A stretch of 64,000 nt of DNA. It comes from Pelobacter propionicus DSM 2379 (GTDB lineage: Bacteria > Desulfobacterota > Desulfuromonadia > Geobacterales > Pseudopelobacteraceae). Each line of letters opens with the position of its first letter. Positions within the stretch are counted from its first letter, which is position 1. Shown piece after piece: positions 9,943-52,844 of this stretch. The DNA lies in the NCBI RefSeq assembly GCF_000015045.1, contig NC_008607.1, forward strand, positions 1 through 64,000, written 5' to 3'. The notes beneath the pieces are model-generated. The model made no database searches. It worked only from the letters and a program-made list of their open reading frames with translations, and was not told the origin of the DNA. Both the position numbers and the translations under genes were made by a program.

Positions 9943-9986
9943 GGGGTGAATCCAACATTCGTGTCACCAGGTATCAAGTAGCCGGG
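9943..9986 (+). repeat. Tn3-type terminal repeat (copy of the transposase-side end)
   Basis: These 44 bases match the reverse complement of 37221-37264, the end that follows the tnpA gene, at 43 of 44 positions. They begin with GGGG, as Tn3-family ends do, and are oriented so that their element would extend to the right. The 5 bases outside (ATGTA) do not match the 5 bases outside the 37264 end (AGATA), so the two are not a simple matched pair from one insertion event. Within the repeat the bases corresponding to the tnpA stop region are still recognisable. Confidence 0.7.
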
Positions 9987-9994
9987 ACAGACAT

Positions 9995-28706: not shown

Positions 28707-28756
28707 GTTAGAAATATATCAGAACACATACACCTGATCAAAGGAGAATTCGTAAC

Positions 28757-29224
28757 ATGAGAAGAATGGCCGTACTCATTGCAGCACTCTTTGCCTTCGC
28801 AGCACCCGTAGCCTCTTTCGCCGGAATGGACCACGATTCCATGGATATGGGGCATGGCAGCCATCAGGGTGATATAGCACATCAGGAAGTTGTGGATGGC
28901 GTCAAGGTAACCTTCAAGGTCATGAGCATGAAAGAGCACATGAAAACCATGAACATGGAAATGCCAAGCGGAATGAAAGAGACACACCATATCGCGGTCG
29001 AATTCAAGGATGCCAAAACGGGCAAGGCCCTGACCGAGGGTGAAGTGAAGGTCAAGCTACAGAAACCGGACAAAACCGCCCAGGCCAAGAATCTGATGGG
29101 AATGCAGGGGCATTTCGGAGCCGATTTCGACCTGTCGAAAAAAGGGAAATATGGCGTAATGAGCAAGTTTCAACTGAAGGATGGTAAAGTGCGCAGCACA
29201 AAATTTTGGTATACTGTCAAGTAG
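28757..29224 (+). CDS. Met/His-rich periplasmic protein, sigma-54 controlled
   Basis: A signal peptide (AVLIAALFAFAAPVASFA) is followed by a Met/His-rich stretch (GMDHDSMDMGHGSHQG) and a beta-rich domain of about 110 residues (ETHHIAVEFKDAKTGKALTEG; FGADFDLSKKGKYGVMSKFQL). The domain has the immunoglobulin-like pattern of YtkA/CopC-like proteins. The Met/His segment is typical of Cu(I)/Ag(I) buffering in the periplasm. A paralogue with the same ending (KFWYTV) is at 56548-57000, also behind a sigma-54 promoter. I take it as a copper-inducible periplasmic binding protein. Confidence 0.78.
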   Translation: MRRMAVLIAALFAFAAPVASFAGMDHDSMDMGHGSHQGDIAHQEVVDGVKVTFKVMSMKEHMKTMNMEMPSGMKETHHIAVEFKDAKTGKALTEGEVKVKLQKPDKTAQAKNLMGMQGHFGADFDLSKKGKYGVMSKFQLKDGKVRSTKFWYTVK

Positions 29225-30472: not shown

Positions 30473-30910
30473 ATGAGAAAAGGATGCATTGTTACCGTGA
30501 TGTGCCTTGTTTTTGGAGCTATAGCCATGAACGGACTTGCATTTGCTCATGGTATGGAAAAGCATGACAAGGCAACAATGGACGACGTGCAGATGAAGAA
30601 ACTGCATTCCATGATGCCGATGTTTTCCGAAGTATCAGCAAAACTGGAAACGGCTCTTGAGAAAAAAAATATAGTTGCCGTTGAAGCGGAAGCCGGTAAA
30701 CTTTTAAAATCTGTGCCCGACTTGAAAAAATCGAAACCGCACAAGAATATCAAACAACGGAAGAAATATGTAGAACTGGCGACCAATTTGGAAATGGCGG
30801 TAAATCATACAGTTTCTTTAGCTCAAAAGAGTGATTTTGCAGGGGCAAAAGTAGCATTCAAGAAAGTTGAGGAAGCCTGCGCCGCATGCCATACAAAGTT
30901 CCGTGATTGA
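30473..30910 (+). CDS. Small class II (c'-like) cytochrome c
   Basis: A signal peptide (IVTVMCLVFGAIAMNGLAFA) is followed by a helical domain ending in a C-terminal haem-binding motif CAACH (EACAACHTKFRD). A C-terminal CxxCH after a four-helix bundle is the hallmark of cytochrome c'/c-556. The N-terminal Met/His (HGMEKHDKATMDD) is compatible with metal exposure. It may carry electrons or bind small ligands in the periplasm. A damaged copy of its 3' end occurs at 31611-31690. A ribosome site (GGAGGG) precedes the ATG. Confidence 0.85.
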   Translation: MRKGCIVTVMCLVFGAIAMNGLAFAHGMEKHDKATMDDVQMKKLHSMMPMFSEVSAKLETALEKKNIVAVEAEAGKLLKSVPDLKKSKPHKNIKQRKKYVELATNLEMAVNHTVSLAQKSDFAGAKVAFKKVEEACAACHTKFRD

Positions 30911-30940
30911 TCCCGCCGTAACTCACGGGGAGGGAGGTAC

Positions 30941-31054
30941 ATGGGAAAAGCAAACGCTTTAGCGGATAAATACACTTGTATAAATAGAGGTCGTCCATTC
31001 GAGCTTTGGGCTAAACAGACGGAAGTTTGTTTTATAAGGAAGGAGTATAATTAA
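30941..31054 (+). pseudogene. Truncated copy of the 31721 gene start
   Basis: The frame begins MGKANALADK, matching MEKANALSER at 31721, including the upstream ribosome-site region, and then diverges to a stop at 31054. It is the 5' fragment of a duplicated gene, placed directly after the cytochrome gene. With 31611-31720 it brackets the lipoprotein gene at 31164. Confidence 0.65.
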
Positions 31055-31610: not shown

Positions 31611-31690
31611 AATTGCTTTTGCAGCGGCACAAGCTGCACTCAAGAAAGTCGTGCAGCTTGTGCCGCATGCCATGCGAAATTCCATGATTG
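31611..31690 (+). pseudogene. Frameshifted copy of the cytochrome 3' end
   Basis: The sequence matches 30838-30910, the last part of the c'-type cytochrome gene. In one frame it reads AALKKV and in another CAACHAKFHD and stop, so a frameshift separates the two halves. It is followed by the same spacer (GATCCCGCCGTAAC) as the intact gene. It is a remnant of a duplication of about 130 bp. Confidence 0.7.
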
Positions 31691-31720
31691 ATCCCGCCGT
31701 AACGTAGGGGAGATAAGCAC

Positions 31721-32362
31721 ATGGAAAAGGCAAACGCGTTATCGGAAAGAATAGTCAACAGACTTGAACAACACAGACACGATCTTGCCGAAAAGCAGCA
31801 GCAACTCGACAGCAAGATGAAGGAAATGCTGAAACAACGGGAAAGGCTGGCCACCATTGCCATGCGCACTCTTGAAACAGTTATTCTTCCGCGCATGGAA
31901 GAACTGGCACGACATTTCGACAATGCCAAGGTTTCGGTTCTGCAGACGGATACAGATTTCAGTTGCGTCTGTGAATTTCTCCATACTGCGCGATTTCCGG
32001 CAATCGTCAGGCTTGTTATTGCTCTGTTGCCGAGCAATAATGAAGCGTTCACCGCCCGCTATGATCTAAACATCCTCCCTGTGCTGATGGAATACAACCG
32101 GAACGTTGAAAATATCTTTCCAGTTGAAGACAGTGAAAAAGTTCTTGCTGCTTGGGTGGAAGACAGAATTCTCGATTTTATCGATACCTACCTTCGCTTG
32201 GAAAGCCATCCTTTTTATCAAAAGGACAACACTGTCATTGATATTGTCTGTGGTATGCGTATTCCGGTGACATCCGCAACAAGCTCTGTTGAGCGGCATG
32301 GCCGGATATTCTACTTCTGCTCGGAGCATTGTAAAGACGCTTTTCTCAAGGGAAACAGCTGA
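31721..32362 (+). CDS. Coiled-coil protein with C-terminal YHS metal-binding domain
   Basis: The first 60 residues form a charged coiled coil (NRLEQHRHDLAEKQQQLDSKMK). A middle helical region follows, and the C-terminus is a YHS/TRASH-type domain (DIVCGMRIPVTSATSS...YFCSEHCKDAFLKG) with cysteines placed for metal binding. YHS domains occur in copper pumps and chaperones. No signal peptide is seen, so it is probably cytoplasmic. Its ribosome site is GGGGAG. A truncated copy of its start precedes the lipoprotein gene upstream. Confidence 0.75.
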   Translation: MEKANALSERIVNRLEQHRHDLAEKQQQLDSKMKEMLKQRERLATIAMRTLETVILPRMEELARHFDNAKVSVLQTDTDFSCVCEFLHTARFPAIVRLVIALLPSNNEAFTARYDLNILPVLMEYNRNVENIFPVEDSEKVLAAWVEDRILDFIDTYLRLESHPFYQKDNTVIDIVCGMRIPVTSATSSVERHGRIFYFCSEHCKDAFLKGNS

Positions 32363-34274: not shown

Positions 34275-37232
34275 GTGAAACGTCGTTGGGAAAGAGAAGA
34301 TCTTGAACTGCATTGGGGGTTGCTGCCTCCAGAATTGAAGCTGCTCCGCAACAAGAGCGGTGCCACCCGGCTGGGTTTCATGCTTCTTTTGAAATTTTTC
34401 CAGTTGGAGGGGCGATTCCCGAGTGCTCCCCACGAAATTCCAGAACAGGCCGTGATCTTCCTATCCGAGCAAACCCAGGTTCCTCCTGAGGCTTGGCAAG
34501 ATTACCCTTGGGAAGGAATTACCATCCGACGGCATCGCTCCGAAATCCGCAAATGGACGGGATTTCGTGAAGCTACCCTGAAAGATGCTAAAAAGTTGGA
34601 GTCCTGGCTCCTGAATGATGTTCTGCCTACGGAACATCGGTATGATCGTTTGAAGGAAGCGGCTTTGAGCCATTGCCGGACCATGCGGATTGAGCCGCCT
34701 GGCCCAGAGCGACTTAAACGCCATATCCGGGCTGCGGCTCATGCTCACGAAACCCGGTTCTGCGAAGGCGTCTACCAGCAGTTGTCATCGAGCGTGGTGG
34801 AACGGCTTGAAAAACTGTTGAGACCGCAACCAATCGCGGATGGCGAATCCGAGTGGACCGCCTGGCAAAACCTGAAGGCTGACCCTGGAAAGGCTGGCGT
34901 TGAAAGCGTCAAAGAGACCGCTGCCCGATTGAGGTTGGTGCGGGAAGTCGGGCTTCCAGCAACTCTTTTCGCAGGGGTTCCCCCAAAGCTCCTGGAACGA
35001 TATGCCAAGCGGGCCTCCGTAGAAGAACCCTTCGAGCTTCGTCGTCATGGTAAACCTCTTCAGGCAACGATCCTCGCGGCATACCTCCACCATCGAAGCG
35101 AAGAATTGACTGACCACCTCGTGGATCTATTGGTGGAGATTATCCACAAGATGGGAAAACGGGCAGAAAAGAAGGTTGAGGAACAACTGTCCGGCCAACT
35201 CAAGAAGGTGCCCGGCAAGCTCGGAGTTCTGGTCCGCATGGCAGAAGCGTGTCTGAACGCGCCGGAAGGCGTGGTAAAACAGGTTATCTATCCGGTGGCT
35301 TCCGAAGATCTCTTGAAAACCATACTCCAAGAGATCCAAAACTCCGGTCCGGCTTACCATAACACTGTGAGGATTGCGCTCAAGCGCTCTTATCAATCAC
35401 ACTACCGGCGGATGCTCCCTGAGTTGCTGGGCACCTTGGAGTTCAAGTGCGAGAATGCCCGGTATAAGCCTGTGATGGATGCTCTGGCAGTGCTGAAGGC
35501 ATATTTGCCGCACAAGGCGCCGTCTTATCCAGAAGGGACGAAGGTGCCCATCGAGGGAGTTGTTCGCCCCATATGGATGCCGTTGGTTATTGAAGCGGCT
35601 GGTGCTCCCCCGAAGATCAATCGCGTAGCTTACGAGATCTGCGTCCTGAAGGCGCTTCGCGAGCAGCTCCGGTGCCGGGAAATTTGGGTGATGGGCAGCC
35701 GCCGATATCGGAACCCAGATGATGACCTTCCCCAGGATTTCGAGGCCAGACGGGAGGAATATTACGCTGATTTAGGTATTCCCACGGACGCGAAAGCACT
35801 CACGGCTCTCATAAAAGAGGAAATGACCCGCGGTCTTGCAGCTCTGAATGAAGGGATGCCTGGCAATTCCAAAGTGAAAATTCTTCCTAAAAAAGGCGGG
35901 AGGATCTCAGTCTCACCCCTTGAGCCGCAGGCAGAACCGGAGAGCCTCGGTGAGCTCAAGATTGAAATGGCTCGCCGATGGCCCATGACGAGTCTCTTGG
36001 ATGTCTTGAAGGAAACCGATCATCAAGTGGCTTTTACCCAATTCCTCCGGAGCGGAACCGAACGAGAGCACCTGGACCGTCGCGTGCTTCGTCGCCGCCT
36101 CCTACTCTGCCTCTATGGACTCGGCACCAATACTGGCCTCAAACGCATGGCAACAGGGCAAGGAGATGATTCCCCCAAGGACCTGCAGTATGTCCGGCGT
36201 CGTTTTCTTTCGCTCGAAGGTCTGCGTCATGCCATAGCCCAAGTGGTTAATGCAACCCTGGATGTCCGCCTGCCTCAGATATGGGGCGATGCTACCACGT
36301 CCTGCGCCTCGGATTCCAAGCAGTTCGGTGCCTGGGACCAGAACCTTCTCACGGAATGGCACAACCGTTATGGCGGGCGTTGTGTGATGGTCTACTGGCA
36401 CGTCGAGAAGAAATCCACCTGCATCTACTCGCAGTTCAAACGTGTGTCCTCCTCAGAGGCCGCCGCCATGATCGAAGGGGTGTTGCGCCATTGCACAGAG
36501 ATGGAGGTGGAGCGCCAATACGTGGATAGTCACGGGCAGAGTGAAGTTGCCTTCGCTTTCTGCCGTTTGCTGGGCTTCGAGTTGATGCCACGGCTCAAAG
36601 GCATCCATCGCCAACGACTTTATCTGCCTGAATCTGGACAGACCTATCCGAACATCGATTTGGTGTTAGCCTCAAGGTCCATCAACTGGGATATCATTGA
36701 GCAGCAACTTGACGCCATGGTGAAACATACCGTGGCCCTGAAAATGGGAATGGTCGATGCTGAGAGCATTCTGCGCCGCTTCACCCGATCAAACATCCAG
36801 CATCCGGCTTACAAAGCCTTCGCGGAACTTGGCAAAGCCATCAAGACGATTTTCCTGTGTCGCTATTTGGGCTCCGAGGAACTGCGGCGCGAGATCCACG
36901 AAGGCCTGAATGTCGTGGAAAACTGGAACAGCGCCAATGGGTTTATCTTCTATGGCAAAGGAGGCGAGTTGGCAACTAATCGACGAGAGGACCAGGAAAT
37001 GGGCTTGCTCTGTTTGCATCTTCTCCAGGCGAGTCTCGTATTCATAAACACGCTGATGATACAGCGAGTTCTCACCGGCGCACCTTGGTCAACCACATTA
37101 GGGACGCGGGATCTGGCCGCCCTAAACCCACTGCTCTACCATCACATCAACCCCTACGGCGTCTTTGATCTGGATTTGGATGCGAGGCTTCCGCTTGGGG
37201 ATTACATGCCGACGGGTGCCCCGGCTACTTGA
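34275..37232 (+). CDS. tnpA: Tn3-family transposase
   Basis: This is a large DDE transposase (985 aa, normal for Tn3) that drives replicative transposition and forms cointegrates. Acidic residues at the expected places are in [14 protein letters not shown] (about residue 671), [13 protein letters not shown] (about 750) and [12 protein letters not shown] (about 882). The N-terminal part has the DNA-binding architecture of the family. A GTG start is used. The stop codon lies inside the 44-bp terminal repeat that ends at 37264, so the gene is complete and the right end of the element is present. Family assignment is firm. Confidence 0.95.
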
Positions 37233-37264
37233 TACCTGGTGACACGAATGTTGGATTTACCCCA
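37221..37264 (-). repeat. Right terminal repeat of the Tn3-type element
   Basis: Read on the minus strand this begins GGGGTAAATCCAACATTC and covers the tnpA stop. It matches 9943-9986 at 43 of 44 positions. The five bases outside, AGATA (37265-37269), are the same as the five bases preceding the Tn3-like end at 45996. Confidence 0.8.
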
Positions 37265-37382
37265 GATAAGTCATCTAAACCATTCCTGGAGCTGGCCAGG
37301 CTCGCCGATCCGGATCAGCTCGCCGGCGTACTCCGGAACACAACATATAGGGGTTTACGTTTGTGGTTTTATCGTTCCTGGA

Positions 37383-37565
37383 GGGAGTGGGGCGGGTGAA
37401 AGAAATGAAAGAAACGACTCGCCCGGGCTGAGAGCCTTTCCAGCCCGAGCGAGCGGTTTCCAGGCCGTTTAAAGCTATCGTCTGCAGGAGGAGGAGCGGG
37501 GGGGCGTTCCCGTGATCCTCCGGAAGATGATTGCTTTGGCCCAAGCTGACGGGTGGGGGACTCCC
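37383..37565. ncRNA. Candidate structured RNA, copy 1
   Basis: This is the first of three related elements (others at 40208 and 41202). The ends pair as GGGAGT (37383-37388) with ACTCCC (37560-37565). Hairpin A is CTCGCCCGGGCTG with CAGCCCGAGCGAG (37418-37453). Hairpin B is ATCGTCT (37477) with AGATGAT (37525), enclosing GGAGG/CCTCC and CGGG/CCCG. Unpaired purine-rich GTGAAAGAAATG and GGTTTCCAGGCCG segments are conserved among copies. There is no open frame common to the copies. Strand is undecided: one wobble pair favours plus, two favour minus. No named family is recognised. Confidence 0.6.
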
Positions 37566-37664
37566 GCAAGGTGCTGGCCGGTGAACGGCCACCGGCCGCA
37601 ACTGAGAGATTAGAGGTGATGTTTTTGTGCTCGTAGCCAAAACCCGAAGGGGTTAAAAATATAA

Positions 37665-37693
37665 CGCCAGCCGCTACAATGTCACGGCTGGCG
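37665..37693 (-). terminator. Terminator after the DUF3560 gene
   Basis: CGCCAGCCG and CGGCTGGCG form a perfect 9-bp stem with an 11-base loop. On the minus strand it is followed by TTATATTTTT. It lies 26 bases beyond the stop of the gene at 37719-39428. Confidence 0.8.
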
Positions 37694-37718
37694 GTGGGTT
37701 AAATACAAACGGCCCTTG

Positions 37719-39428
37719 TTATGCTCTTAAAACCACAAGGGCAACGCTCACGCCGGTTCCTTGCTCCTGAAAACTTCCTTCAGGTAATGTTTCCCAAAGA
37801 TCCGCAATATTTTTAAACTCTTCCCGCTGGCGTGGACCGTTCGCGCAAAGAGATATCAAGCGGCCCCCAGGCTTCAGCATCCCGAAGGCGTGCCGGATGT
37901 GTTTGATGTCGGCGCCGTTCACGAAAGGCGGGTTTGCAATGATCCTGTCGAACTGTTCGCCGGTCCATTCAAGGAAATCGGCGCAATGCACGGCTGTCAG
38001 CGGAAATTCCGTCTCAAGCCTTGCCGCTAATTTCTGATTGATTTCAACCGCTGTGACGCTGCCCCGCTCCGGATTGTGGTCAAACATGCTGCCGCCCATC
38101 GCGCCGATCAGGTTTCCAGTTCCTGCGCTCGGCTCCAGCACATCCATGCCGGGCTCGATCTCTGCCAGTTCGACCATATAAGCCGCGATCCCTGGAGGCG
38201 TCGGGAAGAGCTGATCAACTGCCACGGTCTGCACGCCTGCCTTGAGGCTGTCTTTCATGGCCTGGATCTCGGCCGGCATTGCTTCCGGTGCGGCCGGCGT
38301 CGGTGCCTTGGCCGGCGCGTCCTCGGAGATTATCAGGCTGCGGTCATCCTCGCCGAGTATCCGGCCCTCGGCCCTGGCCTGTTCAACCTGGCCGGCGCTC
38401 ATCAATGCGCTGAGTTTGTCAAACGGCATGGTGCGCGTAAAGTCTCGGCCGCCGTTGCCCCAATTGTCAAGGACCGTGACGCTTACCTTATTGACCTTGA
38501 CGATCTTCGACCAGCAGCCCCGGCCACGACCTGTTGCCCAACATTTGCAAGCGCCGCCCTTTTCCGGCTTGGTCTGGTCCGCCTTGGTTCCTCCCGCCTC
38601 ATCGAGCATTGCCCGTTCATAAGACAGCCGGTTGTCATAGTGGGATATCCAGCGGTTACACCATTCAATAACCCGGCGCTTTGCAGCTGTCGCCATTTCC
38701 AGGGCGGTTTCAAAGTCAAGCTCCCCGTCTTCGAGTCGGCGGGTGTCTTCGTGAGATAAACCACCTTCCCAGGTAACGAGCAACGCGGGTAAAAGCTCGC
38801 GGCCATCTTTCAAAGTTACGCCTCGGGCTTCCGGGTCCGTGTAAGCCTTTAAAAACTTCTCAGCTTCCTTCCTGGTCCGTTCCTGTTTTCGCTTGTCCGC
38901 TTCAATGGTTTTAATTCTCCGTGCGCGAACGTCCGGACGTTCCTTGTATTTGGCATGTGACAACGCACCGGCTGCGCGGCTGGTCCAGTATTTTGCCTGA
39001 TCCCACATTTTGACGGCTTTCCTCATACCGTTTTCAATTTGCTCCGCATGTTTTCGGGCGTGTTTCTCGCTATGATGCCCAACAAGGATAGGTTGACCAA
39101 ACGGGATTCCGTCGGCAATGCTCTTGACGTGTGCCGTTGCTTTCTGGCTGTCCCCTGCTCTGCGGTCGCTGTAGTCTTCGAAGCGTTCCGCTCTCTGCTC
39201 GGCACGGTCAACAAGGCTTGTGTCCTCGTCGCCGATCTCCTCGCAAAGTTCTAAAAGCAAATCTTCCCTTGCCGGCGTCCACATAGGAGCAACAAAAAGA
39301 TCCTGTTTCGGTGCCCACTTGAAACCGGCAGTTTTAACCCTGGTGTATGTTTCGGAGTCGAGCCGGGTCATACTATAAAGCCTCAGTTTATTATCATCCG
39401 GTGAGTAGGTCGCTGTCATTCCGTTCAT
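37719..39428 (-). CDS. DUF3560 protein with C-terminal N6-type methyltransferase domain
   Basis: The N-terminal part (ATYSPDDNKLRLYSMTRLDSETYTRVKTAGFKWAPKQDLFVAPMW) is a DUF3560-type plasmid domain. A charged middle region follows. The C-terminal 140 residues form a methyltransferase with the SAM-binding loop VLEPSAGTGN and catalytic motif IIANPPF. Such proteins occur on large plasmids and integrative elements, often near PRTRC genes, and may modify element DNA or resist host restriction. The ATG at 39428 has GGAGGG upstream and follows the small gene at 39487; a longer frame from 39617 would overlap that gene. A terminator follows. Confidence 0.85.
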   Translation of the reverse strand: MNGMTATYSPDDNKLRLYSMTRLDSETYTRVKTAGFKWAPKQDLFVAPMWTPAREDLLLELCEEIGDEDTSLVDRAEQRAERFEDYSDRRAGDSQKATAHVKSIADGIPFGQPILVGHHSEKHARKHAEQIENGMRKAVKMWDQAKYWTSRAAGALSHAKYKERPDVRARRIKTIEADKRKQERTRKEAEKFLKAYTDPEARGVTLKDGRELLPALLVTWEGGLSHEDTRRLEDGELDFETALEMATAAKRRVIEWCNRWISHYDNRLSYERAMLDEAGGTKADQTKPEKGGACKCWATGRGRGCWSKIVKVNKVSVTVLDNWGNGGRDFTRTMPFDKLSALMSAGQVEQARAEGRILGEDDRSLIISEDAPAKAPTPAAPEAMPAEIQAMKDSLKAGVQTVAVDQLFPTPPGIAAYMVELAEIEPGMDVLEPSAGTGNLIGAMGGSMFDHNPERGSVTAVEINQKLAARLETEFPLTAVHCADFLEWTGEQFDRIIANPPFVNGADIKHIRHAFGMLKPGGRLISLCANGPRQREEFKNIADLWETLPEGSFQEQGTGVSVALVVLRA

Positions 39429-39486
39429 TTTAATTCCCTCCCTTTCTTGGTTGCCGGTTACAAGGCCACCGGCGGGGCAAATTGGA

Positions 39487-39669
39487 TTACTGTGAAAAAT
39501 CTTCGCTAGACTTCTCCCCGGCACTTTCAGAAACAAGCGCATAAGCCGCTTTCGCAACCTTGCCGATTTTCTCCTTTTCCCCTGTGCTCTTAGATGCGAG
39601 AATGTAAGCCGCTTCAAGATCTGTTGCGGCCCTCGTCAAAAACTCTAAAACCGTAAGTCTGATTTTCAT
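39487..39669 (-). CDS. Small plasmid protein, unknown
   Basis: A 60-aa protein starts at an ATG with GGGAGGAAAG just upstream and ends 58 bases before the DUF3560 gene in the same direction. Sequence is MKIRLTVLEFLTRAATDLE and an alanine-rich helical remainder (AYILASKSTGEKEKIGKVAKAAYALV). It is not recognised. The good ribosome site and operon position support it as a gene. Confidence 0.55.
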   Translation of the reverse strand: MKIRLTVLEFLTRAATDLEAAYILASKSTGEKEKIGKVAKAAYALVSESAGEKSSEDFSQ

Positions 39670-39728
39670 GGTCTTTCCTCCCGTTTGCTTTTAGATTCCT
39701 GAACCCTCTCGGGCTCTGCTGTTGCTCT

Positions 39729-39848
39729 GTTTTTTTGTGTGGAGGCTTTTTCTGTGCCTCGATGCTTGCTTTTGAGTTCCTTCACCCCTCACTTTCAATG
39801 GGGGTAAGGAATTCAAAAGCCTGTCGAGGCAAGTCCGCACAAAAAAAC
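39729..39848. repeat. 120-bp near-perfect palindrome
   Basis: GTTTTTTTGTGTGG at the left pairs with CCGCACAAAAAAAC at the right. Nested inside are TGCCTCGA/TCGAGGCA and GCTTTTGAGTTCCTT/AAGGAATTCAAAAGC, with ACCCC/GGGGT near the centre at about 39789. A palindrome this long in the upstream region of plasmid-type genes could be a single-strand origin, a transfer or replication site, or a strong transcription barrier. It lies 60 bases upstream of the small gene at 39487. It covers part of the gene-free stretch 39670-40564. Confidence 0.7.
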
Positions 39849-40005
39849 TAAAGCAATGCTTCCAGGTGCAGCGCTGCCCTGGCCGGAATGAAGCGGCTCA
39901 CGAGGCATGACAACGGGTGTATCGTTGGCGTGACTCGGTGAAGAGCGGAATGCAGGGAAAAGGGTAAAAGCAAACTGCCGTTGATCCTGGCGGGGGGATC
40001 GTAAG

Positions 40006-40075
40006 GGGGGTAAGGCGTACCCCCATTACATGAAACTATCGGAATGCCTATCGAGGTCCACCCGATAGGCTTTCC
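40006..40075. repeat. Two more strong hairpins
   Basis: GGGGGTAAGGCGTACCCCC (about 40006-40025) and GCCTATCG...CGATAGGC, flanked by GGAA/TTCC (about 40041-40075), are both self-complementary. The remainder of 39850-40207 shows no gene. These structures and the 120-bp palindrome make 39.7-40.1 kb the most likely control region (replication, transfer or leader) of the plasmid-like segment. Confidence 0.5.
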
Positions 40076-40207
40076 GCCTGACCGCTTAAAGCGACTGTTT
40101 CAGTACAGGAGAGAACGGAGTGAGCGGATGGAATGAAATAGCGGCTTTGGTCCAAGACAGTGACACTAGATGTTGTGGTGTGGGGTTGAGGTGATTTTGT
40201 TCCTGGA

Positions 40208-40389
40208 GGGAGTGGGGCGGGTGAAAGAAATAAAAGAAACGTCTCCCCGAGCTGAGAGACTTTCCAGCCCGGGGAGTGGTTTCCAGGCCGCTTAAGGCTA
40301 TCGTCTGCAGGAGGAGGAGCGGGGGGGCGTTCCCGCGACCCTCCGGAAGATGATTGCATTGGCCCAAGCTGATTGGGTGGGAGACTCCC
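40208..40389. ncRNA. Candidate structured RNA, copy 2
   Basis: Closing stem GGGAGT (40208-40213) with ACTCCC (40384-40389). Hairpin A is CTCCCCGAGCTG (40243) with CAGCCCGGGGAG (40265-40276); both arms differ from copy 1, yet pairing is kept. Hairpin B has ATCGTCT (40300) with AGATGAT (40338). After the element, TTTTGTGTTA and TCGGCCGG recur as in copy 3. It lies downstream of the thermonuclease gene stop on the minus strand; no gene starts within 170 bases on the plus strand. Confidence 0.6.
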
Positions 40390-40564
40390 GAAAGGTGCCG
40401 TTAAGGTTTTGTGTTAGTCGGCCGGGACCCGCAGGGCTGAGACTCGGACGGCCTTTAGTTCGAGGCTCGGGGCGAAGCCTCCCAGAGCGTAAACACCCGA
40501 AAAAAGAGTTTAAATGCTAAAGATATGTTTCATCATAGAAAACATTTTAAAAGCAGCTTTTCCG

Positions 40565-41128
40565 CTAATTTTGATCTCGCCGGCTTTTTTTAAGTAACTT
40601 GCGGAACTCCCACGGTGGTTGCGGATTATTCTGCTGCCACAACCCTTTTTTTGCCTTCCTAGCCTGCGCCTCCGCCTGAATGTATTCGCTGGCATAAGGC
40701 CGGTCCAGGTATTGACGGTATGCCCAGGCCCAACCATCAGCAACCATCTCCTTGTTTATGTTTCGGTTGCCAAACATCACGATTGAGACGACTCGATGAT
40801 ATCGGTCAACGGCCATCACTTCCAGTCGGACATTCTGCCGCTCGATTTTCTGCTGGAGAGCCTGAAGCGCTTCCTCTCCATAAGGTTGACCTGGCTTGCT
40901 GATTTTGCCTGTTCGTTTATTACCTTTCTCTGTCTCTGGGCAATCGATGCCATAAAAACGAACTTTGACTTTATTACCGGAGCGGTCAGTCACCTGGATG
41001 GTGTCTCCGTCGCTGACCTTTGAAACGGCTCCCTCGATGATCCGGAGGGGTTCCTTGGCCAGGGCCGGTAAGGCGCAAGAGAGGGTGAGAGCAAATACAA
41101 TAATGTTTTTAACTAGATGCCGAATCAT
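40565..41128 (-). CDS. Exported thermonuclease (SNase fold)
   Basis: A signal peptide (NIIVFALTLSCALPALA) is followed by a staphylococcal-nuclease domain: VSDGDTIQV, VRFYGIDCPE and VDRYHRVVS carry the residues that bind calcium and phosphate in the family. It would degrade DNA or RNA outside the cytoplasm. The ATG at 41128 with CAGGAGG upstream is preferred to an ATG at 41164. Plasmids and conjugative elements often carry such nucleases (for example near transfer genes). Candidate RNA copy 3 ends 74 bases upstream of the start on the minus strand. Confidence 0.88.
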   Translation of the reverse strand: MIRHLVKNIIVFALTLSCALPALAKEPLRIIEGAVSKVSDGDTIQVTDRSGNKVKVRFYGIDCPETEKGNKRTGKISKPGQPYGEEALQALQQKIERQNVRLEVMAVDRYHRVVSIVMFGNRNINKEMVADGWAWAYRQYLDRPYASEYIQAEAQARKAKKGLWQQNNPQPPWEFRKLLKKSRRDQN

Positions 41129-41201
41129 GATTGCCTCCTGTAAGAAAACGGTTAACCTGGTCAACCCAGTTGTTTATATCATAGGTTCATTTTGTTTTGG
41201 A

Positions 41202-41383
41202 GGGAGTCGGGCGGGTAAAAGAAATGAATGAAACGACTCGACGAACTGAAAGCTTTAATCAGTCGGCGAGTGGTTTCCAGGCCGTTTAAAGTTACCGGCT
41301 GAAGAAGGGTAGGGCAGGGAACGTTCTGCAATACCCTTTGAAGCTGGTTACTTTGGCCCAAGCTAACAGGGTGGGGGACTCCC
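41202..41383. ncRNA. Candidate structured RNA, copy 3
   Basis: Closing stem GGGAGTC (41202-41208) with GACTCCC (41377-41383). Hairpin A is CTCGACGAACTG (41237) with CAGTCGGCGAG (41260-41270). Hairpin B is ACCGGCT (41294) with AGCTGGT (41342), enclosing GGGTA/TACCC (41307/41332) and CAG/CTG. Compared with copies 1 and 2, changes in one arm of hairpin B are matched in the other, which is compensatory evidence for an RNA fold. It lies between the divergent thermonuclease and small-protein genes. Confidence 0.6.
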
Positions 41384-41520
41384 GGAAGGAGCCTGTTTTT
41401 TTGTGTTATCGGCCGGTTGACTATGGATTTATAATGTTAGATCGGTAGCAATACCGGCTGGTTAATGTATGGTCTCAACATAGATAGTTTGATTTATGAA
41501 AGTGTGGAGGTCACCAGACT

Positions 41521-41739
41521 TTGACCAATGAAAAGAAGATGTTAGGTTGCAACTCATACTCCATCTGCTGTACTCCTGAGTCTCAAGACTACAATGATCT
41601 GTGTTATGAGGATAAGCAGAGGTTCGGGTATTTGGTCAATCGACTGAGGAAACAGGGTCACGACCTGAAGACTGCTCAAAAAATGGCATATCAGAATATC
41701 ACTTGTGAGAGCATACCGTTTGAACCCAATGGGAGATAG
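41521..41739 (+). CDS. Small Cys-rich protein, unknown
   Basis: This 72-aa protein with four cysteines (MLGCNSYSICCTPESQDYNDLC) and a helical middle (RFGYLVNRLRKQGHDLKTAQKMAYQ) starts at TTG with GGAGG 12 bases upstream, or at the ATG at 41539. It is not recognised. Two hairpins follow, so it is a single-gene unit downstream of candidate RNA copy 3. Confidence 0.5.
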   Translation: MTNEKKMLGCNSYSICCTPESQDYNDLCYEDKQRFGYLVNRLRKQGHDLKTAQKMAYQNITCESIPFEPNGR

Positions 41740-45988: not shown

Positions 45989-46254
45989 TCAGATAGGGGT
46001 AACACCAACATCCTTGCAATGAGGGGCCATCTGTAAATGGTAGCCCATTTTCTTCCTTTTACCCTTCCGGCCGTACAATAACTTCACGTAAAAGTGTTTT
46101 ATGACAGTAAAGGGCGGCATCCAAAACAATTGGCATATTATTGTTCGTAATTTGGGGACCACTGCAGAGTGGATAAATCTGCGCATGTCGATAAGAATAT
46201 CGACGGCATCAACGTCAACGGCCTCTTGCAGGCTGATGACGGTGGGGTTACTCA
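45989..46254 (-). CDS. Small third frame after the methyltransferase gene, cut by a transposon end
   Basis: The ATG at 46254 overlaps the methyltransferase stop (ATGAGTAA), giving an 87-aa product (SNPTVISLQEAVDVDAVDILIDMRRFIHS...). Its last 13 codons lie within the Tn3-like terminal repeat at 45996, so the original gene was probably truncated by the insertion and now ends by chance. Its function cannot be read. Confidence 0.5.
45996..46033 (+). repeat. Tn3-like terminal repeat facing right
   Basis: It begins GGGGTAACACCAACATCC and keeps about 24 of 38 positions of the tnpA-side repeat, with the first 19 best conserved. It is oriented so that the element would extend rightwards. The preceding five bases (45991-45995, AGATA) equal those after the repeat at 37264. 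It also resembles the degenerate repeat at 9995. Confidence 0.6.
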
Positions 46255-49200
46255 TCCCCGTTCTCCTCAGCACCGCTTTTGCCCATGCGGTATTTGATGT
46301 CGTAGTTAATAATGAAATCCAGTTCTTCCGATGAAAAACCATAATGTTTCGCAAGTACATGATCTATCTCGTCAATGAGTGGTTTTGACTTGCTAATCAC
46401 ATACCTTCTGGATGTAACGTCTCCTCGTGTTTTTGAATATACTGTCTCTAATTTAGAATTTGTTTCAATTGAAGCAGCTAATTTACTACCTAGTTTTTCA
46501 AGTTGACCTGCAATCGATTCAGAATAGCCGCTAAATCTGAATCCAAATATCATATAATCTTTCAGGTTGTACATATCGTAATGCACCGAATAGTACCACC
46601 AAAATGTAGAGCTACTTACAATAGCAACAGCTTGATTGCCTGATATTCCAGATAGATACGCTATTTTATTACTCAACGATTCACTATCAAACTCTTTATT
46701 ACTAACTGCTTTCCAATACCTTCCACCAGCAGTTCTATATGCAAGTATATTTTCGGTCGGCTTAAAAGACTTGTATTTTTCAATAGCCTCATTTGTATAT
46801 AAGCGATATAGCATATTCGATTCAAATTTATTGTACTTTATCTTTAGGATCGAGTCTGTTAACACGCTGACATTATTGTCTTGCATTGAATAATATAGGT
46901 AATTGAACAAATAATGTCTCGCAGTTGATGACCATCTATTAATTCCAGTACTAAATATTTTCGGTGATTTTGAAACTGAGCCAATAATCTCTATAATTAA
47001 CCGCTGATCAACACCAACAAAAAGCTTACTCGGTCTTTCATCAAAAGAAGATATCCAGATAGTGCGATTAGGTAACTGTTTTGAAGGTTTGATTAAAGCC
47101 TGAAGTGGTTTCATCCTGTCAGTATTTATAGATGGTAGTGGTACTATAAAGCCAAGAAATCCTTCGCATCTTGATATTTTATAAGCTCGTTCGGCCACGT
47201 ATGAATGTAAATTACCACATTCAATAGTCTGATAATTTAGTAGTCTATATACTTTTTTCAGCTTTTCACCATATTCAACATACGGAGGATTACCGATAAC
47301 CACATCAAAACCACCTCGATCATGGATAATCTCGTAATACTCCGCAAACCAATGAAACGGTTTGTGTGAATCGTGCCATGATTTGTATTCGGCGGTTTTC
47401 TTCGGGTCTTTGCCATACAGCTTTCCAAGATACACATCCAGCCGATCATTCAGCTTGTGCAGGCGTTCGACCAACTGCTTCTTGGCTCCTTTCTTTGTGA
47501 TGTCATTTTCAATCTGCGCCTCACGAAACGCTGAAAAAGCCCGTTTAACATAATCAGCCGCTTCTTCGATACTGGCAATATCCTTATCGTGGAAACCCAG
47601 TTGTCCTTCCACCGCCTTTTTTACTTCGTCGATCGACACAAAACCGACCAGCGTATTTCCGGAACGGATGTTGAAATCGATATCCGGCAGCGGCTCCAGC
47701 CCCATGTTTGGTTTCTTATAGTCAACATCCACTGTGGCCACCAGCTTCAGGAACAGGCGCAGTTTTGCAATCTCGATGGCCTCATTCATGATATCTACGC
47801 CAAAAAGATTATTGAGGATGATTGACTTGAAGATGAAATACTGGAGGTTGGGGTGTTCGGGAGCATCTACCCGTTTCAGGACTTCATCAAATGTTTTGTA
47901 TTTGCCTTTGGCCGCTTCGGCAACGAAGGAATGCATACGCACTATGCAGGCTTCATACAAAGGCTCAAGGACATTCAGGGCGGCGAACAGAAAAGCGCCG
48001 GAACCACAGGTAGGGTCAAGTATGGTAATTTTTTCGAGCGCCTTGTAGAAATGGCGGATCAGTTCAGCATCGATGCTGTTTTGGATAACATCAATGGCAA
48101 ATTTTGTAATATCGAGGTTGTAGGTGATCAAATCGTTGATCTCGTGAATGTCACCCGCTTCAATCTTCTCCTTTACCTCTGCATAGCGTCTGCGTCGCTC
48201 AACCACCTCACGCCAGATTTCAGTCGGCAGGGCGTATTCGGCAGGGGCAGCTTTGTTCCATTCTTCCCGCTTGCTTACATCTTCGAGGCCTTTGGCAATC
48301 CCAGCCGGCAATTCAAGCTCAACACCATACTGTATCGCTGGGTAGATGTAATCATTTGGGTTTTTCTGTAACTGTTTCCATATGTCGCCCCCCTTTTTCA
48401 GAGCAAAAGCATAGAGCCGTTTCAATTCATCGAACAGGAAAGGGATGATGCAGTTCTTGCCGATGTAATCGGTAATATCCTCTTTGGTGTAATAGGCACC
48501 CATGGCAGCGCGGTCGTTGATGTACTTCTCGAAGATATAACCGATAACATCAGGGTTGATCTCTTTGCCGGTAGCCTGCTGGCGGGTGTCAAGATGCCAT
48601 TCGTATTGATCGAAGAAGCTGAATATTCGTTCGAATGCCTTATCCTCAATCTTTATGTCGGTATAGGTGATCTCCAGTTCGTGAACATCGAATAGGCCAC
48701 CATTCAGATAAGGCACCTTACCCAGTTCGCTTTCAAACTTCTTGTTATCTGGTGATCCCAGCCCCTTATGGAATAGCACCAGCAAGAAATTGCGATAGAA
48801 CGAATAGAATTTGTCCTTACCCTTGCGGGACTGCGTCTCGGCTAGCTTGGTCTTCAGATAAAACTTGTCGTTATTGAGAAACCCTTTTTTCTGAATGAAG
48901 TAAATGAACATCAACCGGTTGAGCATCAGTGAGGCATACCAGTCTTTGTCCTGTGGCTCGGGAATGCCGATGATGAAGGCCAGGAATGCAGTGTGCTCCT
49001 TTTTGAAACCTTCGTAGAATTTTTTCGTGATCTTTTCGGCATTGGTGTTGAAACCGGTCTGCACCCTGCCGGTGACATCAACAACGGTGATATTGTCCTC
49101 TTCATCAATGGAGAAGAACAGGTGCTGGAGCTTCTGGTATAACAGCTCCGGCTCCTGGGTCGAAAAATATGGCGTTTCTCGAACAACTGCCGGTTTGTCA

Positions 49201-49514
49201 AGTTCCTTCAGTACTAATTGCCATACTTGCTGGCGCTTATTGCTGTCAATAAAGATGATCAGGTGCTGGTGATAGAGCTTGGTGATGGCGGAATCAATCT
49301 TCTTGCGGGTGGCATAGTCAGGCACCTTGCCGCTTGTCTCACAGACAAACACAAAAAAGGCGCTCTTATCGGCAATCGCTTCAAGCTGATAGACCTGGCC
49401 ATTCACCGCCACCGGCTCTTTCTTGGTGGCATGGTTCCAGCCGAGTTGGTTGAACAGCTCCCGCAGCTGGAAATTTTTTATTAGTTTGGAGCAGACTGTT
49501 TTTTTGATGGACAT
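46248..49514 (-). CDS. Large N6-adenine methyltransferase (Eco57I/type IIG-like)
   Basis: This 1088-aa protein has SAM motif DPTCGSGAFLFAALN and catalytic motif VIGNPPYVEYG, separated as in Eco57I-type enzymes. The C-terminal region is likely specificity or target recognition. Its N-terminal 250 residues may be a nuclease-like or coupling domain, but no PD-(D/E)xK motif is clear to me. The start directly abuts the helicase stop. It is typical of two-gene or three-gene defence operons in which a methyltransferase marks self DNA and a helicase-nuclease acts on invaders. Confidence 0.85.
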   Translation of the reverse strand: MSIKKTVCSKLIKNFQLRELFNQLGWNHATKKEPVAVNGQVYQLEAIADKSAFFVFVCETSGKVPDYATRKKIDSAITKLYHQHLIIFIDSNKRQQVWQLVLKELDKPAVVRETPYFSTQEPELLYQKLQHLFFSIDEEDNITVVDVTGRVQTGFNTNAEKITKKFYEGFKKEHTAFLAFIIGIPEPQDKDWYASLMLNRLMFIYFIQKKGFLNNDKFYLKTKLAETQSRKGKDKFYSFYRNFLLVLFHKGLGSPDNKKFESELGKVPYLNGGLFDVHELEITYTDIKIEDKAFERIFSFFDQYEWHLDTRQQATGKEINPDVIGYIFEKYINDRAAMGAYYTKEDITDYIGKNCIIPFLFDELKRLYAFALKKGGDIWKQLQKNPNDYIYPAIQYGVELELPAGIAKGLEDVSKREEWNKAAPAEYALPTEIWREVVERRRRYAEVKEKIEAGDIHEINDLITYNLDITKFAIDVIQNSIDAELIRHFYKALEKITILDPTCGSGAFLFAALNVLEPLYEACIVRMHSFVAEAAKGKYKTFDEVLKRVDAPEHPNLQYFIFKSIILNNLFGVDIMNEAIEIAKLRLFLKLVATVDVDYKKPNMGLEPLPDIDFNIRSGNTLVGFVSIDEVKKAVEGQLGFHDKDIASIEEAADYVKRAFSAFREAQIENDITKKGAKKQLVERLHKLNDRLDVYLGKLYGKDPKKTAEYKSWHDSHKPFHWFAEYYEIIHDRGGFDVVIGNPPYVEYGEKLKKVYRLLNYQTIECGNLHSYVAERAYKISRCEGFLGFIVPLPSINTDRMKPLQALIKPSKQLPNRTIWISSFDERPSKLFVGVDQRLIIEIIGSVSKSPKIFSTGINRWSSTARHYLFNYLYYSMQDNNVSVLTDSILKIKYNKFESNMLYRLYTNEAIEKYKSFKPTENILAYRTAGGRYWKAVSNKEFDSESLSNKIAYLSGISGNQAVAIVSSSTFWWYYSVHYDMYNLKDYMIFGFRFSGYSESIAGQLEKLGSKLAASIETNSKLETVYSKTRGDVTSRRYVISKSKPLIDEIDHVLAKHYGFSSEELDFIINYDIKYRMGKSGAEENGDE

Positions 49515-52500
49515 TTACCCCTCCGTATTGACGAGCCCCATTGAGCAGATGATCTGCGGTTCACGATTATGAAATTCCTCTTCTTCGACAATACAGAGCT
49601 TGTCGTCATCACGCAATGATATGACAAGATCGGCCAACCCTTCATCCGATACGCCGGTTTTAAGGTGTCGCCCGATAGTCTCACGCGCCAGTTCTTTGAG
49701 TGGAAATTTGAAGATGTCATCTACAGCGCGTTTCAGCTCGCTAGTGACAAAAAGCGTACCTTCATTGGCCTTGATGTAGCGATCAAGGTGCATGAATACA
49801 CGATAACGGACGCTTGATTTTTTGCCCAGCGTGCCGGTTGCGGATGATTCGGTATCTTTGATCAAGTCTAACCCCTTGGCCACCAAGTCATGATGATGCT
49901 CCAGGCGGTGGAGCGCCGGGGTATCATGAGAACATGCGGTAGCGTCCAGGATTATCTTTTGCGACTGGGTGATAACATTGCCCTGTTCATTCAACCAAAC
50001 AAGAAAATCATTATCCTCTGCCGTGCGGCTGTAGACGATAACGCCCTGTTTGTCCGCTGCTGCAGCTTGTATTGATTTGGTACCATAGATGGAGTTGGCG
50101 AGCTCGGGTATGATCTTCAATAGGTTCCGGTCTGCGTCAGTGGCGTTTTTCCATATCTGCCAGGCATAGGAGGCAAGATCAACCTCCCCCTCATCTCCTT
50201 CATCCAGGACTCCTGATTTCTCGTTGTACATATCCTTGATATTGATCGGATCTCCATCAAAGAAAGTTTCATCGGCACCGACAACCTCGGCATTCTCGCT
50301 GATACGTCGTGACAGTCTGCCACGCAGCTTGATGATATTTTCCAGCCCATCCTCCGGCAGAAACGAATAACAAAGAATATGGTCGGACTTCTGGCCGATC
50401 CTGTCCACACGTCCTGCCCGTTGAATCAGGCGGATGATTGCCCAGGGGAGGTCGTAGTTTAGAACGACATGAGAGTCTTGCAGGTTTTGCCCTTCGCTCA
50501 AAACATCGGTACTTATCAACACCCTTATTTCCTGCGGTGTACCTGCAACACCTTTAACACCATTACTGATCGGGCTAAAACGACGGGCATTGTCGGTGGG
50601 ATCGTCAGTATCACCTGTAACGCCTTCAATCTGCGTCATACCCCGTTTTAGCAGTTCTTCCGCCAGATAACGGGCGGTATCGGCAAACTGGGTAAAGATC
50701 AGTAGTTTTTCCTTGGCATGGGTCTTTGTGCAGAGTTCGTATAACGCATTCAACTGACGGTCGTCTTTGGGGCGCCATTCTTTCACCATGTTGATGATCT
50801 TCAGTATTGCATTGCTATCCTTCATCAACTGAGTCTTGAGGGATTTTTTGAAAAGGCCCGCCCTGATCCACTCGAAATGATCACGCTCTTTTGTGGCAAA
50901 GTAGGTGTAAAGATCGGCAGCCTGGTCAAGATAACTGTTGGCGTCGAGATGTACTTTACGGGAGTCGCCATCTCCATCTTCGTCCTCGATAAAACCATCC
51001 AGGAAGCTACCTTGCTGAGGACCTATCGGAAACTCAAGATCGTTTTCAATGGCATGCAGGTAGAGGTAATTCCGGAGGACATGGCGGCTAAGAGATAGCA
51101 GGAAGGCATAGCCGCTGCTCTCAAGGCGCTTGAACAGATTGGTGCGACAAAAACCCATCAGTCGCTTGCCGGCACGGGAAAGATTGTCCTTGATCTGTTT
51201 CTCTTTTTCGGTGAATTTCAGGAGGCTTTTTTCATCGATATAATTCGCAAGGCCGTAGCGGGGTAGATCGAGATCGTCGATGATGTCAACAACATCGTTG
51301 GAATAGAGCCTGGCATACTGGTCATTCTTATCCTTCGGATCAAAATGATAGATAACAGCCTTTGGTATCCGATCGGGAAAATATGATCGGCTGCCATCGG
51401 CAAATTCAAGATACTTCCTCTTCTTCTCGGGGTCGGTCTTGGCGTAATGTTCTTTGATAAAGCTCCGTGTTCTACGAACCAGGTACAACCTCATCAGTTC
51501 GCGCCAATCATCTGGTGAATCGCTCTTTTCAAATGCAGCAATGCTCCTGGCGTGGCACTGGTGCTTTGCCATGAACTGCACCGGTCCACCGATACTTTCA
51601 ATGTAGCGCTCGGGGCTGATGCCCAGGTCGGTGTCCTCATCCAGGAACAGTGCCAGTTGGGTTGAAAGATCAAGATAGGTCTTGTTGTAGGGGGTCGCCG
51701 TCAGCAATATAACCTTACTTTCGTTCAGCTGAAGATATTCGCGGATAGACTTGTAACGCATTCCTTCCCGGTTTCGGAGGTTATGACTTTCGTCTATGAC
51801 CACCAGCCGATAGCGTCGTTCTTTGGGAAGAATTTTCTGTACCTTTGTTACTGAGATGACTTTTGCACGCAACTGGTATTTGTGGGCATAACCTTCCCAC
51901 ATGTTCACCAGGTTCTTAGGGCAGATGATAAGTGTTTCCAGGAAGAAATCTTCCTCAAATATCTTTGCCAGTGCGGTCGCCGTAATGGTCTTGCCCAAAC
52001 CAACGACATCACCGATGATGACGCCACCACGTTTATTGAGGTGGTGTGCGGCAACCAGCACTGCTTTCTGCTGGAATTCCAGCAACTCTTTCTGAAACAC
52101 TCGCGGTATTTTGAACTCGGCGAAGCCTGCACGGGCTTCTCGTGATAGATTGTAGGCGATTTTCAGATAGATGTAATAAGGCGGAATCAGATTTTCCGTG
52201 GCCCAGCTGTTATCCAATATTTCAACCAGCTCTTTGGAGATGTCTATACACCAATGGTCCTCCCAGCGCTCATCAAACCACTCAGACAACTTACATGCTG
52301 CGTCCTGTTCGAGGACGTCGATGTTCAGTTCGCCTTGGTGATTAAGACCGGCAAGGGTCAGATTGCTGCTGCCGAGATAGCCAATGGTAGGGCAGATATT
52401 GTCTTTGCGAAATGTAAGATACAGTTTTGCGTGTAACTGGTATTTAAGGAACAGCTTGACGATAACCTTGCCATCCCTTATCTGATGCAGAAGCTTACGG

Positions 52501-52844
52501 AGTGCTTTTTCATCCTCTTCCGTAGGTGCGCCGATGACTAATTGTTCTCGAAATTCCTGAGCCAGCTGTTTCTTAATACGATTGGCCGTCTGATTATCCA
52601 TTATGCCTGGACCTGATTTGGAATAACCCGCCCGCACCATTTCCAACGGCATTCTCTGCATCCCGATTAACAGACGACAGCAGCTTCCTTCACCACCATC
52701 CCATTTGTCAACATGGTCAGCGACACCTTTCCAGCCACGCAGGTTGAAATAGCCGACACAGAAATCTGCTCTGGTAGCAATCTCCATGGAATTGTTTAAG
52801 CCTTCAAGAAACTGATTCTCTATGTTGTCGTATATAGTGGGCAT
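49515..52844 (-). CDS. PLD-nuclease/SNF2-family helicase
   Basis: N-terminal residues 1-200 form a phospholipase-D-type nuclease domain (YQLHAKLYLTFRKDN...GYLGSSNLTLAG, one HxK motif). An SNF2-like helicase follows, with GDVVGLGKTITA (Walker A), VIDESHNLRN (DEAH-like Walker B), VILLTATPYNK and the C-terminal helicase half (LIFTQFADTARYLAEEL; IRLIQRAGRVDRIGQ). At 1109 aa it is a normal size for such defence helicases. It is the first gene of the operon, with GGAGAG upstream. With the methyltransferase it forms a predicted restriction-modification-like anti-phage unit; no named system is assigned. Confidence 0.88.
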   Translation of the reverse strand: MPTIYDNIENQFLEGLNNSMEIATRADFCVGYFNLRGWKGVADHVDKWDGGEGSCCRLLIGMQRMPLEMVRAGYSKSGPGIMDNQTANRIKKQLAQEFREQLVIGAPTEEDEKALRKLLHQIRDGKVIVKLFLKYQLHAKLYLTFRKDNICPTIGYLGSSNLTLAGLNHQGELNIDVLEQDAACKLSEWFDERWEDHWCIDISKELVEILDNSWATENLIPPYYIYLKIAYNLSREARAGFAEFKIPRVFQKELLEFQQKAVLVAAHHLNKRGGVIIGDVVGLGKTITATALAKIFEEDFFLETLIICPKNLVNMWEGYAHKYQLRAKVISVTKVQKILPKERRYRLVVIDESHNLRNREGMRYKSIREYLQLNESKVILLTATPYNKTYLDLSTQLALFLDEDTDLGISPERYIESIGGPVQFMAKHQCHARSIAAFEKSDSPDDWRELMRLYLVRRTRSFIKEHYAKTDPEKKRKYLEFADGSRSYFPDRIPKAVIYHFDPKDKNDQYARLYSNDVVDIIDDLDLPRYGLANYIDEKSLLKFTEKEKQIKDNLSRAGKRLMGFCRTNLFKRLESSGYAFLLSLSRHVLRNYLYLHAIENDLEFPIGPQQGSFLDGFIEDEDGDGDSRKVHLDANSYLDQAADLYTYFATKERDHFEWIRAGLFKKSLKTQLMKDSNAILKIINMVKEWRPKDDRQLNALYELCTKTHAKEKLLIFTQFADTARYLAEELLKRGMTQIEGVTGDTDDPTDNARRFSPISNGVKGVAGTPQEIRVLISTDVLSEGQNLQDSHVVLNYDLPWAIIRLIQRAGRVDRIGQKSDHILCYSFLPEDGLENIIKLRGRLSRRISENAEVVGADETFFDGDPINIKDMYNEKSGVLDEGDEGEVDLASYAWQIWKNATDADRNLLKIIPELANSIYGTKSIQAAAADKQGVIVYSRTAEDNDFLVWLNEQGNVITQSQKIILDATACSHDTPALHRLEHHHDLVAKGLDLIKDTESSATGTLGKKSSVRYRVFMHLDRYIKANEGTLFVTSELKRAVDDIFKFPLKELARETIGRHLKTGVSDEGLADLVISLRDDDKLCIVEEEEFHNREPQIICSMGLVNTEG

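Follow-up and report, generated by a model that had tools for sequence, protein, structure and literature searches.

Single-stranded DNA of the Frpo element folds and, in vitro, recruits RNA polymerase; the early expression of leading genes in transconjugants needs Frpo1/2 (PMC9849209). The anti-defence genes of leading regions share one orientation relative to transfer, and Frpo-like promoters are recurrent there (PMC11541004). ArdC is required in recipients and not in donors (PMC7213743). Early counter-defence expression from single-stranded DNA so far rests on Frpo of plasmid F (in transconjugants), on the genetics of ColIb-P9 and on look-alike candidates, and no Frpo or other single-stranded-DNA promoter in Geobacter, Desulfuromonas or the Deltaproteobacteria was among the matches listed in a search of the open-licence literature. 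Here we describe a repeated noncoding element of about 183 bases, E, in the first 64 kb (64,000 nucleotides, hereafter the window) of a 202,397-base contig (NC_008607.1) of Pelobacter propionicus DSM 2379, whose assembly comprises 4.24 Mb in three contigs. Two hairpins of E are supported by paired changes, and we give an even chance to the proposal that E belongs to the leading (establishment) region of a conjugative plasmid, where it would act as a stem-loop of single-stranded DNA and start RNA synthesis.

Copies and fold of element E

The three copies lie where the original prediction had placed them, and a search of the whole host assembly returned no others.

37383..37565, plus strand: E copy 1, with hairpin A at 37411-37460 and hairpin B at 37463-37541
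40208..40389, plus strand: E copy 2, with hairpin A at 40236-40283 and hairpin B at 40286-40364
41202..41383, plus strand: E copy 3, with hairpin A at 41230-41277 and hairpin B at 41280-41358

Pairwise identity is 92.3% between copies 1 and 2, 75.1% between copies 1 and 3, and 70.3% between copies 2 and 3. Two further full-length copies, one in each of two other Desulfuromonadales assemblies, bring the total to five: one in G001 (contig 31, 11241-11422; JACAAY010000126.1, a Desulfuromonadales metagenome-assembled genome) and one in G094 (contig 66, 49146-49334; SBEG01000024.1, a Deltaproteobacteria metagenome-assembled genome), the latter being the most distant, at 61.5-68.1% identity to the others.

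The joint changes in the arms of hairpins A and B that were first noticed in the three host copies persist once these two homologues are added. Hairpins A and B comprise 43 pairs, of which, across the five sequences, 11 differ on both sides yet remain paired; none of 500 shuffles matched this figure, and when the hairpin partners are shifted by 1-3 columns only 0-2 such pairs remain. One of the five covariation measures applied (further pair types) was attained by 40 of 500 shuffles, and the sample is small, with three of its five sequences coming from one plasmid. The stem GGGAGT/ACTCCC, which had been described as closing each copy, is not supported: no pair is changed on both sides, and the stem is invariant in all copies but that of G094, where four of its six pairs are broken. 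The conserved segments formerly described as unpaired are so only in part, as hairpin A has GTTTC paired to GAAAC at its base (G094 breaks three of these five pairs) and the base of hairpin B includes a GGCC/GGCC pairing.

Folded as RNA and compared with shuffled sequences, copies 1, 2 and 3 give z values of -2.4, -3.0 and -5.0, respectively. As RNA, the minus strand of copy 3 (z -5.2) departs from its shuffles to the same degree as the plus strand does, and the same copy folded as DNA gives -5.1 on the plus strand and -4.1 on the minus strand. Comparable or stronger folding occurs in other noncoding parts of this contig, and strong folding alone does not make E special; its conserved, covarying fold does. 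The strongest noncoding fold of the contig (z about -10) is found outside the window at 120600-120960 (L052), where long perfect hairpins lie between genes.

Covariance model R1, in which one closing-stem bracket stood one column off (a slip shared by one of the closing-stem analyses; the covariation test of hairpins A and B is independent of that stem), yielded no further convincing E when run on overlapping sets of 141 genomes from the order, 277 from the class and a draw of 395 from the phylum. Two of its matches, L046 (G215, E-value 0.005) and L047 (G254), were rejected as they fall inside open reading frames (ORFs) of 482 and 430 amino acids; weak R1 matches in G106, G093, G065, G089, G140, G156 and G185 (E-values 0.016 to 0.86) and in G387 (0.006) were not counted, nor were BLAST matches of 25-35 bases in G102, G105, G066 and G038. 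An exact-pattern scan of a species-genome collection, which can miss diverged relatives, found 18 stretches, namely the G001 and G094 contigs and 16 that lack the remainder of the element. The word GGTTTCCAGGCCGNTTAA occurs three times at up to three mismatches against 0.2 expected; TTTGGCCCAAGCT by itself is not significant (five matches at up to two mismatches against 2.5 expected). Blastn of copy 2 against PLSDB (72,556 plasmids) and phage records gave no match, and the G094 copy shares with PLSDB one 25-base chance word, present in 38 records. Word matches in IMG/VR (three, then two more) were discarded since the rest of the element is absent, and two further patterns for E and IR had zero matches there.

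No Rfam 15 family reaches its gathering cut-off within the window, and none of four weak matches (E-values up to 5) in 37000-41700 falls on a copy of E; a tRNA/tmRNA search likewise placed nothing on any copy. That no reading frame is common to the copies also holds. Minus frame 1 is open in four of the five, as is some minus frame in 31-59% of shuffles, and third positions show no excess of changes over first positions; we therefore rejected E as a protein-coding repeat.

A second hairpin family, IR

The noncoding block adjoining copy 2 holds a member of a second family, which we call IR.

39685..39859, plus strand: IR, a long covarying hairpin, ahead (in the minus sense) of a 60-amino-acid ORF and a DUF3560 gene

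IR also sits beside the E copy of G001, on the same strand as E both times. Seven relatives from DNA searches built covariance model R2, and these seven are included in the final count of 24 copies in 17 of the 277 genomes of the class (E-value at most 0.001; loci L085-L108), with up to six per genome. Among 23 distinct sequences, 32 of 33 pairs are changed on both sides and 88.0% of cells are paired, which none of 500 shuffles reached, in an alignment that was fitted to R2 and is thus biased towards it. Most copies (22 of 24) lie ahead of ardC, radC, ardA, DUF3560 or a small membrane ORF often linked to radC; for the other two, no such gene was seen within the flanks examined. Counted as relatives on that side within the flanks, not always the first ORF, the genes on the opposite strand are ArdC (9), RadC (6, three of them behind the small membrane ORF), the membrane ORF alone (4), ArdA (2) and DUF3560 (1). 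At L091 the RadC match runs into the IR element, which led to an automatic label of 'other', and the RadC start was placed 26 nucleotides beyond the anchor. One copy each of ArdA and ArdC was checked against PDB sequences, and RadC by Pfam for one.

The strand of the IR fold can be judged from single mismatches within strand-neutral helices, which on the template strand comprise 20 G.T, 2 A.C and 27 others (p 0.001 if independent, the copies being related), and the template strand has the lower folding energy in 16 of 23 copies. The IR block and two IR copies gave no blastn match in PLSDB. Arguably, the finding for IR is stronger than that for E, as is the evidence for a single-stranded-DNA role.

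Neighbouring genes and the possible role of E

The following features accompany E and IR in the window.

40565..41164, minus strand: SNase-family nuclease ORF, likely ATG at 41128, about 74 nucleotides from copy 3
39865..39994, plus strand: Module M, a conserved noncoding stretch found once in the window and twice in G001 (L005, 10755-10884 and 11750-11879)
39487..39669, minus strand: 60-amino-acid ORF with a ribosome-binding-site-like sequence, the first ORF past IR in the minus sense, with no Pfam match
37719..39617, minus strand: ORF encoding DUF3560 and methyltransferase domains, with TTG at 39617 as its listed start and an in-frame ATG near 39430

Going left along the minus strand, copy 3 is followed by the SNase gene, copy 2, a noncoding block (about 540 nucleotides), the 60-amino-acid ORF, the DUF3560-methyltransferase gene, copy 1 and the end of a Tn3-type transposon. 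In all four resolvable copies E lies upstream of the gene to its left, which is encoded on the other strand (an agreement with a probability of 1 in 16 from chance alone), these genes being SNase, DUF3560-methyltransferase, ardC and HTH-hipA. In G001, a related block and an ArdC gene come next to the left of E, beside VirB/Trb-type transfer genes. In G094, the genes that come next are a small HTH-like ORF (below the Pfam cut-off) and HipA, and that contig and the host plasmid have a gene block and ParB-region genes in common. Genes for Multiubiquitin, E2-family, ThiF and DUF6527 proteins adjoin the G094 copy (L017, 9781-12371, minus strand). The 202-kb contig itself carries F-type transfer genes, two Rep3 genes and ParA/ParB.

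The Tn3-type transposon spans 9943-37263, has 47-bp ends (9943-9989 and 37217-37263; 45 of 47 positions alike) and carries a transposase, a resolvase, a metal-type P-type ATPase and an AcrB-type pump; no 5-bp target-site duplication was seen at its flanks. Its ends are unlike E, which argues against E as a transposon or insertion-sequence end, a comparison made with these ends and no insertion-sequence database. Elsewhere on the plasmid, 46248-52844 (minus strand) holds an Eco57I/MmeI-like methylase beside a helicase with a PLD/NgoFVII nuclease domain, likely a restriction or defence system near the anti-restriction region, and the minus strand of locus L056, at its positions 5989-7983, encodes a 664-amino-acid protein with a Cas12f1/TnpB-type TNB domain. 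Further repeats of the window are a direct pair (30832-30966 and 31614-31746, 80% alike) and an inverted pair (28731-29223 and 57026-56549, 66% alike).

Wobble excess, which the original prediction had named as a means of settling the strand, favours the E fold on the plus strand weakly. With helices defined without wobble pairs and single mismatches counted inside them, there are 18 G.T cells and 4 A.C cells on that strand, which gives p 0.02 by cells with composition allowed for, but 12 versus 4 by columns (p 0.15), in sequences that are related. For copies 2 and 3, the plus strand is antisense to the closest gene on the left. E and IR thus appear folded on the template strand of the adjoining establishment genes and not on the mRNA strand, as would be expected of single-stranded-DNA elements on the transferred strand. 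It is this wobble bias, antisense to the left-hand genes, together with the adjoining IR family that suggests a single-stranded-DNA role for E; since E takes this reading over from IR by way of neighbourhood, strand and gene type, we hold it with no more than even confidence. In such a scheme, the transferred strand would enter the recipient and the plus strand of E would fold into hairpins A and B; the folded element might then recruit RNA polymerase or a primase/primosome, and RNA would start leftwards on the still single-stranded template. The minus-strand establishment genes (SNase, DUF3560-methyltransferase, ardC and the hipA operon) could in this way be expressed, or second-strand synthesis be primed, before the plasmid is double-stranded. 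Three elements of this scheme are inferences: the identity of the transferred strand as plus, the action of E as DNA rather than RNA, and the start of RNA synthesis at E.

The weakness of the strand bias by columns is one of several observations that weigh against this proposal. Neither a relaxase (PF08751, PF07514 and PF03432, the families tried, have no match in the host genome) nor an oriT was found, and the transferred strand is therefore only deduced. Copy 1 has no resolvable downstream gene, the transposon flanks having given no convincing one. As RNA, the G094 copy folds no better than its shuffles (z 0.3), and among 571 noncoding windows of the contig ranked by z, IR is 5th and copy 3 is 7th, with copies 1 and 2 lower. 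By best 12-letter scores, a -35/-10 pair in E is no better than in shuffles in any of the five copies, and the boxes in 23 IR copies have a mean best score of 7.2 against 7.3 shuffled. E stands beside IR in just two of the 17 IR genomes (the host plasmid and G001), the other IR loci being without it. Finally, the minus strand carries a 10-of-12 promoter-like site (37685-37658) ahead of copy 1 and terminator-like calls at hairpin A of copies 1 and 2.

These last two signals would suit a minus-strand RNA, that is, a leader, an attenuator or the 3' end of minus transcripts, as would the left-hand genes, which read away from E, and the minus ORF after which copies 1 and 2 and the G094 copy come. 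We regard this as improbable, given that terminator-like calls stand at the level of shuffles (7 found against 6.9) and miss copy 3, that the wobble bias favours the opposite strand, and that the next likely gene to the right of copy 3 is a plus-strand ORF and not a minus one. A structured non-coding RNA from the plus strand, a plasmid small RNA, is slightly less improbable, although we still consider it unlikely. It would be in keeping with the covarying hairpins, the wobble bias and an RNA energy lower on the plus strand in all five copies, although this is also the G-rich strand. Set against it, no promoter-like site lies directly ahead of any window copy on the plus strand, the flanks of the five copies have no promoter or terminator pattern in common, either upstream or downstream, and transcripts of copies 1 and 2 would converge on genes of the minus strand. 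Of the earlier description of E as a candidate undescribed structured RNA, we retain undescribed and structured, with RNA as the less likely reading.

Least probable of all, in our estimation, is a double-stranded or cruciform site for binding or recombination. Several inverted-repeat copies on a plasmid beside a Tn3-type transposon do bring such a site to mind; the stem sequences, however, vary with their pairing kept, unlike those of a duplex site. The immediate neighbours of copies 2 and 3 include no identified recombinase, Rep or ParB gene, and copy 1 begins 120 bases past the transposon end, whose 47-bp repeat is unlike E.

Comparison with known systems

Sites of primase or primosome loading (G4-type ssi, PriA pas) are stem-loops on single-stranded DNA with conserved unpaired stretches. 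E is likened to these by description, and its position ahead of genes suits a promoter equally. With the structured RNAs of Rfam, E has in common a covarying, multi-hairpin form of about 180 nucleotides, with no family at cut-off in the window. Relative to Frpo and ssi, E and IR differ in having no -35/-10 boxes in the fold and in belonging to a different bacterial order; similarity to these elements was judged by blastn against PLSDB, and not by direct comparison with the Frpo sequence, and gave no match to E or IR. Because a search for the defining boxes of Frpo came up empty, and because no plasmid matched, we have not filed E as a Frpo.

Returning to the single-stranded-DNA reading, we tentatively suggest, with rather less assurance than for E taken by itself, that E and IR may be single-stranded-DNA control elements of two unrelated families, distinct from Frpo and free of sigma-70 boxes, through which anti-restriction and other establishment genes of Desulfuromonadales begin to be expressed from the incoming strand. 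Were this the case, structured leading-region DNA would seem to have arisen more than once, and the two families would offer a handle for finding new anti-defence genes downstream of them. Like Frpo of plasmid F and ssi of ColIb-P9, E and IR are repeated, hairpin-forming and noncoding, and stand ahead of probable leading-region and anti-restriction genes, with a fold that probably forms on the template strand.

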